A DNA stretch of 64,000 nucleotides, from NCBI RefSeq assembly GCF_014696615.1, contig NZ_JACJQJ010000007.1, positions 62,001-126,000 on the forward strand, given 5' to 3'. Shown here one piece after another: positions 30,542 to 33,328 of this stretch. The translations under genes were made by a program, and so were the position numbers. Below the pieces are notes generated by a model, which saw only the letters and a list, made by a program, of their open reading frames with translations, was not told the origin of the DNA and searched no databases. Position 1 is the stretch's first letter, and every line of letters begins with the position of its first letter. Origin of the DNA: Nostoc linckia FACHB-104 (GTDB taxonomy: Bacteria > Cyanobacteriota > Cyanobacteriia > Cyanobacteriales > Nostocaceae).

Positions 30542-30570
30542 TTGACATCTTGTATTACACATACTACATT
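30542..30570 (+). promoter_or_regulatory. candidate sigma70 promoter of the tRNA-like/Y RNA array
   Basis: TTGACA (30542-30547), 17 bases, then TACATT (30565-30570; four of six -10 matches). The expected start at about 30577 is some 36 bases before the first tRNA-like RNA. It is the only strong -35 match noticed ahead of the array. Confidence 0.5.
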
Positions 30571-30612: not shown

Positions 30613-30743
30613 GTAGTGGATAGCTCAAATACCAGAGCGCCCAACTTGCCCGCAAGGGCCGACATATCGAGGGTTACCGCAAATAACAAAAAATATCCTT
30701 GATTGCAATTCTGGAGGTGCAGGTGAAAATCCTGCTCCGCTAC
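30613..30743 (+). ncRNA. tRNA-like Y RNA 1 (YrlA-type)
   Basis: Acceptor stem TAGTGGA (30614-30620)/TCCGCTA (30736-30742), with an eighth pair G30613-C30743. A D arm (GCTC/GAGC) and T arm (GCAGG/CCTGC) are present; the T loop TGAAAAT departs from consensus. Between the arms is a Ro-binding module: hairpin GCCC-GCAA-GGGC, then CCGA with the same bulged-C layout as animal Y RNAs, and GGGTTACC. Unlike the other copies, the strand complementary to ATCGAGG lies 3' (CCTTGAT, about 30697-30703). Probably not a functional tRNA. Confidence 0.8.
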
Positions 30744-30825
30744 ACAAAAATTAGTACTGAGTAATAAGTGCTGAGTTTTGAATTTTTCACTCGAGACTCA
30801 GAACTCACAACTCATAACTTTTCAT

Positions 30826-30950
30826 GTGGTGGGTGGCTCAGTGGTAGAGCGCTAAACATCCTTTTTCACCCCTTGCCTGCAAAGGCCGACGAATGAGGGT
30901 TATCGATTGGGTTCGAGAGGTCGCAGGTTCGATTCCTGCCCCGCCACCCA
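30826..30950 (+). ncRNA. tRNA-like Y RNA 2 with encoded CCA
   Basis: Acceptor TGGTGGG (30827-30833)/CCCGCCA (30940-30946), extra G-1/C73 pair as in tRNA-His, and CCA encoded at 30948-30950. The D arm is GCTC/GAGC and the T arm GCAGG-TTCGATT-CCTGC. The anticodon region is interrupted by the Y module: CCTTTTTC (30860-30867) pairs with GAATGAGG (30891-30898; seven of eight), enclosing TTGCCT-GCAA-AGGCCGA. GGTTATC follows, and then a Pro-like TTGGGT loop. Confidence 0.85.
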
Positions 30951-31021
30951 AAATTAGTACTGAGTTCTAAATTTTAACTTTTTTACTCATAACTCATAAT
31001 TCACAACTTATAACTGTTCAT

Positions 31022-31159
31022 GTGGCAGATGGCGAAATTGGAAAACGCGCTTGACACAAAAACCTTAATTCATCACCTTGCCCGAAAGGGCCGAAGAGTT
31101 GAGGGTTATCGTAATCTAGCAACCGTAAGGTTTTGCAGGTTCAAATCCTGCTCCGCCAC
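31022..31159 (+). ncRNA. tRNA-like Y RNA 3, class II (Leu-like) body
   Basis: Body resembles tRNA-Leu: GGCGAAATTGG D region, a long variable arm AACC-GTAA-GGTT and T arm GCAGG-TTCAAAT-CCTGC. Acceptor TGGCAGA (31023-31029)/TCCGCCA has one A-C mismatch. The Y module sits in the anticodon loop after CACAAAA: CCTTAATTC (31063-31071) pairs with GAGTTGAGG (31096-31104) in all nine positions, enclosing TTGCCC-GAAA-GGGCCGA. GGTTATCG follows. No CCA is encoded. Confidence 0.85.
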
Positions 31160-31194
31160 ACCTAAACTTAATTTTGGATTTTGAATTTTTATAT

Positions 31195-31335
31195 GGGTGG
31201 GTAGCTCAATTGGTAGAGCAATGAACGGGTTAATTACCCATAGTCCTTGGTTCACAACCTTGCCTGAAAAGGCCGACGAGTCGAGGGTTATCGTCAATTC
31301 ATCGGTTGTAGGTTCAAGTCCTACCTCACCCGCCA
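31195..31335 (+). ncRNA. tRNA-like Y RNA 4 with G73 and encoded CCA (Trp-like body)
   Basis: Acceptor GGGTGGG (31195-31201)/CTCACCC (31325-31331), G73 and CCA at 31333-31335. The D arm is GCTC/GAGC, the T arm GTAGG-TTCAAGT-CCTAC, and the variable loop CGGTT. An anticodon stem ATGAA/TTCAT survives; its loop is replaced by a small GGGT/ACCC hairpin and the Y module. CCTTGGTTC (31245-31253) pairs with GAGTCGAGG (31278-31286) in all nine positions, enclosing TTGCCT-GAAA-AGGCCGA. The closest of the six to a normal tRNA. Confidence 0.85.
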
Positions 31336-31357
31336 AAATCTAATTTTGAATTTTTAT

Positions 31358-31482
31358 GTGGCAGGTAGCTCAGTGGTAGAGCGCCTAAAACATCCTTGTT
31401 CACCCCTTGCCTGCAAAGGCCGAAGAATGAGGGTTATCGCCTTCCAAGCGGGATGTCGCAGGTTCGAGTCCTGCCCTGCCAC
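31358..31482 (+). ncRNA. tRNA-like Y RNA 5 (Gly-like anticodon arm)
   Basis: Acceptor TGGCAGG (31359-31365)/CCTGCCA (31475-31481) pairs perfectly, plus G-1/C73. The D arm is GCTC/GAGC and the T arm GCAGG-TTCGAGT-CCTGC. The Y module lies between D arm and anticodon arm: CCTTGTTC (31394-31401) pairs with GAATGAGG (31425-31432), enclosing TTGCCT-GCAA-AGGCCGA. It is followed by TCGC-CTTCCAA-GCGG, a tRNA-Gly(UCC)-like anticodon hairpin. No CCA is encoded. The rsr start codon lies 38 bp on. Confidence 0.85.
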
Positions 31483-31491
31483 CTTTCATTT

Positions 31492-31511
31492 TTGCCCGTA
31501 AGGGCCGGGAG
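31492..31511 (+). promoter_or_regulatory. rsr leader hairpin mimicking the Ro-binding helix
   Basis: TTGCCC-GTAA-GGGCCGGGAG repeats the core of the neighbouring Y RNAs, including the stem, GNRA loop and bulged C. Its 3' side is also the Shine-Dalgarno (GGGAG, 31507-31511), 8 bases before the rsr ATG at 31520. Ro binding here would mask the ribosome site. Structure is seen; regulation is inferred. Confidence 0.6.
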
Positions 31512-31519
31512 ATGAATTT

Positions 31520-33124
31520 ATGAATTATAATTTTTTCACTAAAAAGAAAGCAAATACGCCACAAACTCAGCCTATCCCCGGACGGGAAGCAGAGATGGTT
31601 AAGGGACGTTCCGGCGGGTATATGTTTGAGGCTGGTATTTGGAAAATGCTGCGCCGTTGTCTATTGATTGGTACAGCAAAAAGCACTTACTATGCTGGCA
31701 AACAGGAACTAACAGAAGATTTTGTAAATGTTGTTAAGCAAGCTGTAGCAGAAAATCCTGGGCGGGTTGCAGAGGAAATTCTTTATGCTAGCGATGGCCG
31801 CGCCATCAACAACAGTGCGCCTATCTTGGCTTTAGTGTTGCTATCGATGGGTGAAACACCAGAAGCGAAGAAAGCATTTGGTGACATCTTTGGGCAAGTT
31901 GTCCGTACTGGTAGCCACTTTTATGAATGGCTGAACTACACGAAATCGCTGCGGGGATTTGGTAAGGTGGTGCGCGAAGCTGGTAAAACTTGGCTATCGC
32001 GTGAAGATGTTAAAGGTTTGGCTTATCAACTGTTGAAATATCAACAGCGTCAAGGCTTCTCGCACCGAGATGCATTACGATTGTTCCATATTAAACCACC
32101 TACAGAAATTCACCGAGAGCTATTTGAGTGGGTAGTGAAAGGTTGGGAAGAATTGCCAGCAGACATCCCTTCAGAAGCCTTAGCGCAGATTTGGTGGTAT
32201 GAGTGGTTAAAACGCAACCCTAGCGAAACCCACACTGCGATCGCACAAGGTCGTCTCACCCACGAAATGGCTGCACCTGTCGGTAAAATGGATAAACAAG
32301 CTTGGCAGCTACTTTTCCAAGAAATGCCCATCGGTGCAATGCTGCGTAACCTTGGTTCTTTGACAGAACTAGGCGTGCTACGAGCTGATGAAAGTGCCAA
32401 TCTTCAGCGAGTAGAAGCAGTTCTCAATCATCAAGAACATCTGCGTAAAGGTCGCATACATCCGATTGATGTTTTGAAAGCTCTCAAAACCTATCAATCT
32501 GGTGGTAGATTAGGGCGCAGCCAGAAAACTTGGGAACCAGTTCCACGAATTGTAGACATCTTAGAAAAAGCACTGGAACTATCTTTTGATGTCGTACAAC
32601 CTACAGGCAAAGTTTTCATGCACGCTGTGGATATTTCTGGCTCTATGTCTTGGGGTGTGGTGGATTCAGTGGGTTTAAGCTGCTGTGAAATAGCTACTAC
32701 AATGGCGCTAGTAACAGCAAAAGCTGAGAAAAATTACATGATTCGTGGCTTTGCAACCGAATTTAGAGAACTAGGTATCACCGCTAAAGATACTTTTAGT
32801 TCTGCACTTCGCAAAGCTAGCAATCAAAACTTTGGTGGTACAGATGCTTCTGTGGCCTACGAATGGATGATTAAGAACAAGTTCAAAGCAGATGTAGTTT
32901 GCTTTTGGACTGACAATGAGTCATGGGCTGGTCATAAACATCCCAGTCAAGCCTTGGCGCAGTACCGCCAGAAGGTGAACCCTAATGCTAAGGCAGTGTA
33001 TGTCACCCTTGCACCTTACAACATTACCTTAGTAGATCCTCAAGATCCTCTTTCTTGGGATTTAGCAGGTTTCGACCCTGGAACACCTCGCATCATCCAG
33101 ATGCTAGCTACAGGTGAACTTTAA
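31520..33124 (+). CDS. rsr: Ro60 orthologue, TROVE domain protein
   Basis: 534 residues. A TROVE (HEAT-repeat ring) domain spans about 20-355, e.g. 'GTAKSTYYAGKQELTED' and 'KSLRGFGKVVREAGKTWL'. A von Willebrand A domain follows, with MIDAS residues D371-S373-S375 (DISGSMSWG), T441 and D465. Ro60/Rsr binds Y RNAs on its outer surface and misfolded RNA ends in the ring, and can tether the exonuclease PNPase in bacteria. Genetic context is decisive: Y-RNA-like genes lie immediately up- and downstream. SD GGGAG with 8-base spacing supports this start; an out-of-frame ATG at 31512 stops at once. Confidence 0.95.
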   Translation: MNYNFFTKKKANTPQTQPIPGREAEMVKGRSGGYMFEAGIWKMLRRCLLIGTAKSTYYAGKQELTEDFVNVVKQAVAENPGRVAEEILYASDGRAINNSAPILALVLLSMGETPEAKKAFGDIFGQVVRTGSHFYEWLNYTKSLRGFGKVVREAGKTWLSREDVKGLAYQLLKYQQRQGFSHRDALRLFHIKPPTEIHRELFEWVVKGWEELPADIPSEALAQIWWYEWLKRNPSETHTAIAQGRLTHEMAAPVGKMDKQAWQLLFQEMPIGAMLRNLGSLTELGVLRADESANLQRVEAVLNHQEHLRKGRIHPIDVLKALKTYQSGGRLGRSQKTWEPVPRIVDILEKALELSFDVVQPTGKVFMHAVDISGSMSWGVVDSVGLSCCEIATTMALVTAKAEKNYMIRGFATEFRELGITAKDTFSSALRKASNQNFGGTDASVAYEWMIKNKFKADVVCFWTDNESWAGHKHPSQALAQYRQKVNPNAKAVYVTLAPYNITLVDPQDPLSWDLAGFDPGTPRIIQMLATGEL

Positions 33125-33131
33125 AAAGGCT

Positions 33132-33164
33132 GTTCGCGTAGCGTCTCCGATAGGAGAAGGATAA
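33132..33164. repeat. small dispersed repeat between rsr and Y RNA 6
   Basis: GTTCGCGTAGCGTCTCC.ATAGGAGAAG with a short inverted repeat (TCTCC/GGAGA). It resembles the 25-30 bp dispersed repeats of Nostoc genomes, several of which occur in this window. Confidence 0.5.
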
Positions 33165-33216
33165 AGGCTGAAATCCAAAAATTTTCATCCTTTATTCTTC
33201 AACCTTCATACTTCAT

Positions 33217-33328
33217 GGCGGGTTATCCTGGTTCGCAACTTGCCTTTCGAGGCCGAAGAACTTAGGGTTATCGGTTGTATCTCCACCATTCTGGGGATAG
33301 CGGGTTCAATTCCCGCACCCGCCTTTTT
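33217..33328 (+). ncRNA. tRNA-like Y RNA 6, downstream of rsr, D arm missing
   Basis: Acceptor GGCGGGT (33217-33223)/ACCCGCC (33317-33323) is perfect and is followed by TTTTT, so termination is built in. The T arm is GCGGG-TTCAATT-CCCGC. There is no D arm. The Y module has a UUCG-loop hairpin (GCCT-TTCG-AGGC), CCGA and GGGTTATCG; CCT.GGTTC pairs with GAACT.AGG. A 7-bp hairpin TATCTCC/GGGGATA precedes the T arm. It is the most reduced of the set. Confidence 0.78.

Follow-up and report, generated by a model that had tools for sequence, protein, structure and literature searches.

Tandem tRNA-like units beside the Ro60 gene of Nostoc linckia as candidate circularly permuted Y RNAs

A stretch of 64,000 nucleotides from Nostoc linckia FACHB-104 (contig NZ_JACJQJ010000007.1, positions 62,001 to 126,000; below, the window) contains rsr, the gene of a Ro60 orthologue, flanked by six tRNA-like units on the + strand, of which five precede the gene and one follows it. 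We read these units as noncoding RNAs that would bind Rsr (Ro60) and that are probably circularly permuted Y RNAs of the YrlA type, working in the way proposed below; on the sequence comparisons that follow, we give this reading a probability of about 0.78. A sequence-only reading of the same DNA had described five tRNA-like units before rsr and one after, and this arrangement is confirmed at 30613-33323.

Anatomy and covariation of the units

The units and the gene are as follows, with scores in bits from the family model described below.

30613..30743, + strand: U1, type B unit (Ro-helix hairpin, then helix 2 closed with a downstream strand), 37.8 bits
30826..30947, + strand: U2, type A unit with an 8-bp acceptor stem and D and T arms, CCA encoded at 30948-30950, 113.3 bits
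31022..31159, + strand: U3, type A unit with a tRNA-Leu-like body (Leu D arm, variable-arm-like hairpin), ends placed by hand, 97.1 bits
31194..31332, + strand: U4, type A unit that adds a small hairpin and ATGAA/TTCAT, which resembles an anticodon stem, CCA encoded at 31333-31335, 105.2 bits
31358..31482, + strand: U5, type A unit with an 8-bp acceptor stem, 118.8 bits
31520..33124, + strand: rsr, Ro60 orthologue of 534 aa (Pfam vWA_Ro60 6e-39, TROVE 2e-18)
33217..33323, + strand: U6, minimal unit with acceptor stem, module, variable-arm hairpin and T arm, lacking a D arm, 53.3 bits

Residues K170, R174 and H187 of Xenopus Ro, which we take to be Y-RNA-contacting and whose positions were located by counting, are identical in the Rsr of the window, and this protein matches Deinococcus radiodurans Rsr (2nvo) at E 9e-80 and 1yvp at E 3.6e-72.

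An acceptor stem of 7-8 bp and a T arm are present in U1 to U6, and a D arm in U1 to U5. At the position of the anticodon arm lies a common module, which consists of UUGCC, a tetraloop, GGC-C-GA, 10-11 bases, and UUAUC or UUACC. The stem, T arm and module that the sequence-only reading ascribed to each unit are thus seen in six of six. Its statement that the loops are always GNRA or UUCG holds for all six units of the window and only in part for relatives (at least 228 of 293 parsed units). Spacers of 25-82 nt separate the units. In U4 (31194-31335) and some relatives, an extra small hairpin (GGGTTAATTACCC) stands ahead of helix 2, within the anticodon-stem-like pairing.

Relatives were collected by a scan of genome contigs, and the best 80 of 166 Rsr relatives, all cyanobacterial, were taken as loci. 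A unit parser gave 328 pattern matches in total, 35 of which fell under the score cut-off and were dropped (some of them evident units with T-loop repeats, others chance matches), leaving 293 parsed units. Some training data of the parser and of the family model also enter several of the counts given here. An 8-bp acceptor stem occurs in 256 of the 293, with a scoring that mildly favours 8.

The parsed units show two strand connectivities (247 are type A, 38 type B and 8 unclear). In type A, the strand after GGCCGA pairs with the strand before UUGCC; in type B, to which U1 belongs, it pairs with the strand after UUAYC. The UUAYC strand of U1 pairs with a downstream strand, and that of the other five units with an upstream strand. 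The Ro helix and helix 2 are thus identical in the two types and only their connection has moved; judged from the pairings, U1 is a second, non-circular permutation.

Pairing was assessed in three alignments, each with controls in which the partner strands were slid or the data shuffled. Alignment A1 comprises 32 units chosen for diversity through a pattern that fixes UUG, C[C/U]GA and UUAYC, and is not model-fitted; 95.0% of its cells are paired (slid controls, 38.6-51.5%), and 18 of 31 pairs have changed on both sides (acceptor 8/8, D 2/4, helix 2 4/9, Ro helix 1/5, T 3/5). Alignment A4, which is fitted to the model and holds 150 model matches (148 distinct), has 97.3% of cells paired (slid, 38.9-52.1%) and both-side changes in 21 of 31 pairs (acceptor 8/8, D 3/4, helix 2 4/9, Ro helix 2/5, T 4/5), with five measures unreached by shuffles. 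In alignment A2, consisting of 19 type B units, 98.8% are paired (slid, 39.0-48.5%) and 11 of 31 pairs changed on both sides. The claim of the sequence-only reading that the stems covary as parts of a real structure is therefore borne out, each helix having compensatory changes. That reading had also named, as an outcome that would tell against it, a module not kept as a helix across homologues; the helix is kept in the three alignments, whose cells are 95.0-98.8% paired.

The positions that we take to be U8, A14, U54, C56, A58 and C61 in tRNA numbering are invariant in the 32 units of A1. A T loop with TTC accompanies a D-loop GG in 186 of 198 distinct units and is found in 5 of 38 without GG, an association confounded by relatedness and drawn from a parse that holds a few wrong units; 22 units without a D arm, all with TTC, were set apart. 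This association fits the loss of the tRNA elbow in one lineage, the U1 type; in U1 itself, the T loop is TGAAAAT and the D loop lacks GG. Separately, the T loop of several units in relatives is split by an inserted dispersed repeat, about 20-30 nt long (type CCTACGGGAAGC... or TGCCTCCGGCACGC...), that leaves the stem intact (L010:3704, L017:3717, L030:3868, L033:3863, L034:3717, L044:3683 and 3866, L057:3706).

The family model (R1) was built from 32 type A units, U2-U5 among them. These four score 97-119 bits, and the best other match in the genome is of tRNA length and reaches 48.8 bits; none of the 59 other matches in the genome exceeds 100 nt. U1 is recognised by its position and its own alignment rather than by the family model, because its 37.8 bits fall below this best other match. 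The helix motif TTGYCN6GRCCGA has 12 matches in the 9.39 Mb genome, six of them in these units, and its reversed-pattern control has 4. Single-sequence folding, a weak test, gave moderately low energies (z -0.56 to -3.47). A chance origin of the units was rejected on the slid and shuffled covariation controls together with the helix-motif control.

ARAGORN finds no tRNA gene in the window, where the units offer no anticodon arm with a 7-nt loop, and the Rfam tRNA model (RF00005) is above its cut-off on only two of the six units, U4 (71 nt skipped) and U2 (62 nt skipped). The YrlA model (RF02553) stays below its cut-off of 69 bits for every unit; its two best matches in the window, 29.4 and 26.6 bits, both span two neighbouring units. 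Neither the Y RNA family nor the group I intron family matches the region at E up to 1.

Relation to YrlA, animal Y RNAs and tRNA

In YrlA, the ends lie in the Ro60-binding stem, and the attached tRNA-like part has its acceptor stem closed as a hairpin. In the units, this circle of elements is cut open at the acceptor stem instead, and a tetraloop closes the Ro60 stem, which gives them ends of the tRNA type. They share with YrlA (RF02553; PDB 6CU1) the adjacency to rsr, the bulged Ro-site helix, a second helix, the T arm, the acceptor stem and the D arm; they differ in forming tandem arrays, in their diverse bodies and in an Rfam score under the cut-off. The linear order of YrlA (Ro stem, T arm, acceptor hairpin, D arm, Ro stem) is found in none of the units, which are circularly permuted relative to it. 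Plain membership of YrlA was rejected on element order and Rfam score.

The circular order of the elements in the units is that of YrlA-like RNAs of phages. Matches to rsr occur in 348 phage records, and at the two loci that were read the RNAs have the YrlA order (Gordonia phage Cashline, 42.2 bits; Mycobacterium phage ScoobyDoobyDoo, 28.8 bits). When units are cut at the tetraloop and joined at the acceptor end, they align over their full length with the phage RNAs (five of the six rotated units given). For a more general test, all rotations of 60 units sampled from 181 were compared with three phage YrlA-like RNAs. The best rotation lay within 10 nt of the tetraloop for 53, 59 and 56 of the 60 units, respectively, and the mean score rose from 54.5, 50.1 and 47.7 in the natural order to 81.1, 83.0 and 78.0 after rotation. 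Folding five rotated units jointly with three phage RNAs gives 30 pairs, 20 with compensatory changes. PMC11472068 describes YrlA (6CU1) as superposing on tRNA with a circular permutation; by comparison of element order, the cyanobacterial form undoes this permutation. No paper on a cyanobacterial Y RNA is among the literature matches listed (titles and abstract starts, open-licence), and an earlier description, for example in the founding YrlA papers, is possible.

Animal Y RNAs carry the motif CCGA, ten bases, UUAUC; their free ends are at the bulged helix and they have no tRNA part. The module resembles them and the nematode stem-bulge RNAs in placing GGC-C-GA opposite UUGCC, followed by about ten bases and UUAUC. 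It departs from the animal form, in which the 5' and 3' ends pair in the helix, because here the helix is closed by a tetraloop. The proposal of the sequence-only reading that the bulged-C helix and spacing of animal Y RNAs are kept, with a permuted strand order and a tetraloop cap, is supported by the covariation. The circular permutation relative to YrlA, the separate connectivity of U1 and a copy of the helix in the rsr leader (see below), as deduced from these comparisons, go beyond it.

With tRNA (class I, or Leu-type), the units share the acceptor stem, the D and T arms, the elbow residues and sometimes an encoded CCA, which directly follows the acceptor stem in 105 of 251 distinct units. 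They are unlike tRNA in that a module of roughly 60 nt replaces the anticodon arm and an eighth acceptor pair is frequent. Most of the single tRNAs read in the genome of the window also lack an encoded CCA; this genome has two further long tRNA arrays (L150, L151; C97:90200-92700, C59:240-2100), many members of which have one. Among the 293 parsed units, duplicates counted, the D stem is GCTC/GAGC in 176, GCCA/AGGC in 20, and GCGA or GCGG/ACGC in 11. Since the D arms are too alike, isotypes could not be named, except for U3 (Leu). Such diverse bodies suggest, on comparison, either that there are several effector ends or that the units have drifted, with conversion from tRNA genes.

Occurrence with rsr

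In the 80 loci, the family model has 313 matches at E up to 1e-4, and among the 300 matches listed, at least 78 of the 80 loci have one. In many relatives, a match lies downstream of rsr at a position similar to that of U6. The sequence-only reading had regarded six copies as unusual. This is not supported: among the matches listed, 11 lie upstream of rsr in Prochloron (L073) and 10 on one contig of G044, and with a copy number reaching about eleven in the clade, six is not unusual.

In the order, 72 of 291 genomes match rsr; 68 have the gene in full or in large part with 70-100% identity, and the other four have short fragments (G094, G042, G160) or an Rsr of 32% identity (G246). Units were counted as present when the best model E was below 1e-9, a threshold set, with strict filters, after a gap from 5.7e-11 to 1.5e-8 had been seen. 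They are present in all 68 genomes with a close rsr, in none of the three fragment carriers and not in G246; of the 219 genomes that lack an rsr match, one has them. For 68/68 against 1/223, Fisher's exact test gives 2e-66, which overstates the evidence because related genomes are not independent. The link between tRNA-Y RNA chimeras and rsr proposed from the sequence alone is upheld by these counts, and in the search of other Nostocales that it suggested the array recurs in many related genomes. The lone carrier without rsr, G084, has one 65.6-bit unit and, by eye, traces of another; it shares its genus with two of the fragment carriers, and its array looks decayed.

In a sample of the phylum, 35 of 339 genomes match rsr. 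Two genomes of another order (G310, G421; 72-73% Rsr identity) have units, among which both types are recognised by eye, and their rsr leader has the hairpin or a variant of it. In G324 (38%), rsr stands within a long tRNA array and the model matches score 57.2 and 49.1 bits, at least the first being a clear chimera. In G322 and G306 (34-35%), non-permuted, animal-like Y hairpins adjoin rsr, and G322 scores 37.4 of 38 bits with the Rfam nematode stem-bulge RNA family. G246, of the same family as the window, has RNAs that are YrlA-ordered by eye, beside tRNA genes (26.4 bits). Weak rsr matches (27-28% identity) were found in G304, G314 and G320. Compared across these genomes, the form of the RNA appears to follow the Rsr lineage, the examples being single cases.

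Other observations in these relatives concern the neighbourhood of rsr. Non-permuted, animal-like Y RNA hairpins lie upstream of rsr in deep relatives (L204:5380-5820, L203:3600-3740). Divergent rsr genes (38% and 32% identity) are located in or beside long tRNA arrays with Y-like RNAs (L205:100-3700, L197:2800-10500), places where tRNA arrays and Y RNAs may have come together. Plasmid pAQ7 of Picosynechococcus PCC 7002 (NC_010474.1, L209:4541-5000) carries rsr, three units and a variant leader hairpin (CCCGCGAGGGACGG); its gene table, which leaves out RNA genes generally, has no RNA genes at the three units.

Several results weigh against the reading as permuted Y RNAs. In the shuffles of A1, the count of pairs changed on both sides was reached in 11 of 500 and the number of pair types in 2 of 500, and in those of A2, pair types were reached in 75 of 500, the remaining measures never being reached in either. 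The pairs of the Ro helix vary little, and the selection pattern of A1 fixed most of them. Elbow residues are gone from the T and D loops of the U1 type, U6 has no D arm, and 146 of the 251 distinct units have no encoded CCA. The Rfam YrlA score stays far below the cut-off in the window and in relatives; the phage references themselves, at most 42.2 bits, are below 69. With a narrower tolerance of 5 nt from the tetraloop, the best rotation was found for 52, 14 and 51 of 60 units, the 14 being the unfavourable result. Shuffled units at their best rotation gave means of 64.6, 58.6 and 64.1 and maxima of 78.0, 75.0 and 76.0, close to the rotated mean. Finally, L032 and L067 have no match among the 300 listed; L032 retains the 3' end of the last unit only, and L067 has none in the 750 bp read.

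Proposed working, alternatives and meaning

Two further features bear on how the locus may work.

31492..31508, + strand: hairpin UUGCC-CGUAAG-GGC-C-GG in the rsr leader, a copy of the Ro-site helix that abuts GGGAG (comparison of 80 leaders)
30542..30570, + strand: putative sigma-70 promoter of the array, TTGACA-17-TACATT (scan and cross-species comparison)

Of the 80 relatives, 73 have the leader helix; it ends 7-12 nt ahead of the start codon and has C (49) or U (24) at the bulge position. The remaining seven leaders have hairpin variants. The expectation is 0.012 per leader, from 92 matches in 266,698 downstream bases of the same loci, for a pattern composed after the leaders had been inspected. 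Because the helix abuts the ribosome-binding site, bound Rsr would block its own translation, and we infer from this placement that rsr may be autoregulated. The scan for promoters and terminators showed no excess over shuffles (4 promoters against 5.3 expected). Among 14 loci inspected, 13 have CTTGACA and TA(C/T)TACATT ahead of their type B unit (L050 is without them), and it is this conservation across species, not the scan, that makes the array promoter credible.

In the working that we propose, the promoter before U1 would give one array transcript, and RNase P and the tRNA 3' enzymes would cut it into units, since tRNA-type ends suggest maturation by tRNA enzymes. CCA would be encoded or added. 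Rsr would then dock on the module at the anticodon position, and the tRNA-shaped end would serve as the effector end, either as a gate or as a tether for PNPase, as proposed for YrlA. Free Rsr on the leader helix would repress rsr translation until Y RNAs titrate it. This function follows by analogy with Deinococcus and Salmonella, where, as summarised in PMC8394870, Rsr sits on the basal stem with the tRNA-like end toward PNPase, and structured RNA is degraded under stress. For Chlorogloeopsis fritschii PCC 9212, PMC6424891 reports that erythromycin causes a dramatic rise of the transcript of a TROVE protein 'for unknown reasons'. Strain PCC 6912 of this species (L057) has the units and the leader helix, and the erythromycin-raised gene of PCC 9212 is likely to be this rsr.

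The same RNAs could instead act as tRNA decoys, that is, as Rsr-bound tRNA mimics that, under stress, would inhibit or titrate tRNA enzymes or the nucleases that cut tRNA, rather than tether an exonuclease. We consider this unlikely, if worth keeping in view: the bodies point to more than one isotype, U3 being Leu-like and relatives having other D-stem classes, Hughes et al. (PMC7790460) propose that YrlA competitively inhibits an anticodon nuclease, and the response to erythromycin noted above (PMC6424891) would fit; however, the units offer no anticodon loop for cleavage, U1 has lost its elbow residues, and no link between the array and a nuclease is among the findings of this analysis. A role as tmRNA-like adaptors, in which aminoacylated units would be bound by EF-Tu and their charging coupled to Rsr, is quite improbable. 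It would account for the intact acceptor end, the CCA encoded in 105 of 251 and the isotype-like bodies, but the acceptor stems mostly have 8 bp (256 of 293), there is no anticodon identity, and the T loops of the U1 type are degenerate.

It is still less probable that the array has another register, being cut within the Ro stems so that ordinary YrlA molecules would each join the 3' half of a unit to the 5' half of the next. The Rfam YrlA model does match in full length only where it spans two adjacent units (29.4 and 26.6 bits for the window, 31.0 in PCC 7002 and 31.7 in L206). However, the acceptor strands covary within the unit (8/8 pairs), and the Ro-helix pairs partly (2/5); L069, L070 and L081, with 4 kb upstream, show a single match among the matches listed; and U6 stands alone downstream of rsr, with spacers setting the units apart.

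Finally, the units might be taken for tRNA genes that are decaying or contain group I introns. PMC5733544 (2017) describes tRNAs of cyanobacteria with 'group I introns' 22-49 nt long and prints motifs for tRNA-Gly(TCC) of Nostoc PCC 7107 and tRNA-Lys(CTT) of Gloeocapsa PCC 73106. These motifs, TTxxC, CTTGxCT, AAGxC, GAAGAAT and GG, interpreted there as those of introns, match the module, and the start at nucleotide 38-39 would agree with the module position. Of 251 units, 25 contain the five printed motifs in order, and of the 63 tRNAs that ARAGORN predicts in the genome, 0 do; the rsr loci, 723 kb in all, contain the chain 23 times. TCCTT, which can be read as anticodon TCC or CTT, is present in 197 of the 251 units. 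Despite the insert at the anticodon region and this ordered agreement, the intron or decayed-tRNA reading was rejected, because the insert covaries and is tied to rsr, while the group I family has no match and no predicted tRNA contains the motif chain. The two 'intron' tRNA genes of PMC5733544 probably belong to the unit family.

If Rsr does bind the module of these units, the docking site of Ro60 is functional in three or more strand connectivities, and what Ro60 reads would be separable from how the RNA is strung. A tandem array holds both registers and so offers an evolutionary route to the tRNA mimicry of YrlA. It is possible, if doubtful, that this clade turned its Y RNAs inside out as a whole, giving them tRNA ends, several tRNA bodies, maturation by the tRNA machinery and perhaps charging. 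In that case Ro60 would be linked with the tRNA pool and with stress on translation, its own mRNA would compete as a docking site, and tandem arrays would bridge tRNA genes and YrlA by a shift of the unit borders. The function of Ro60 and Y RNA would become testable in a tractable phototroph, PCC 7002, with its rsr and three units on pAQ7. The oddly annotated 'intron-containing' tRNAs of cyanobacteria would also be explained: the units are probably a rearranged form of the bacterial Y RNA, found again in many relatives' genomes, and this form has probably been taken before for tRNAs with introns.

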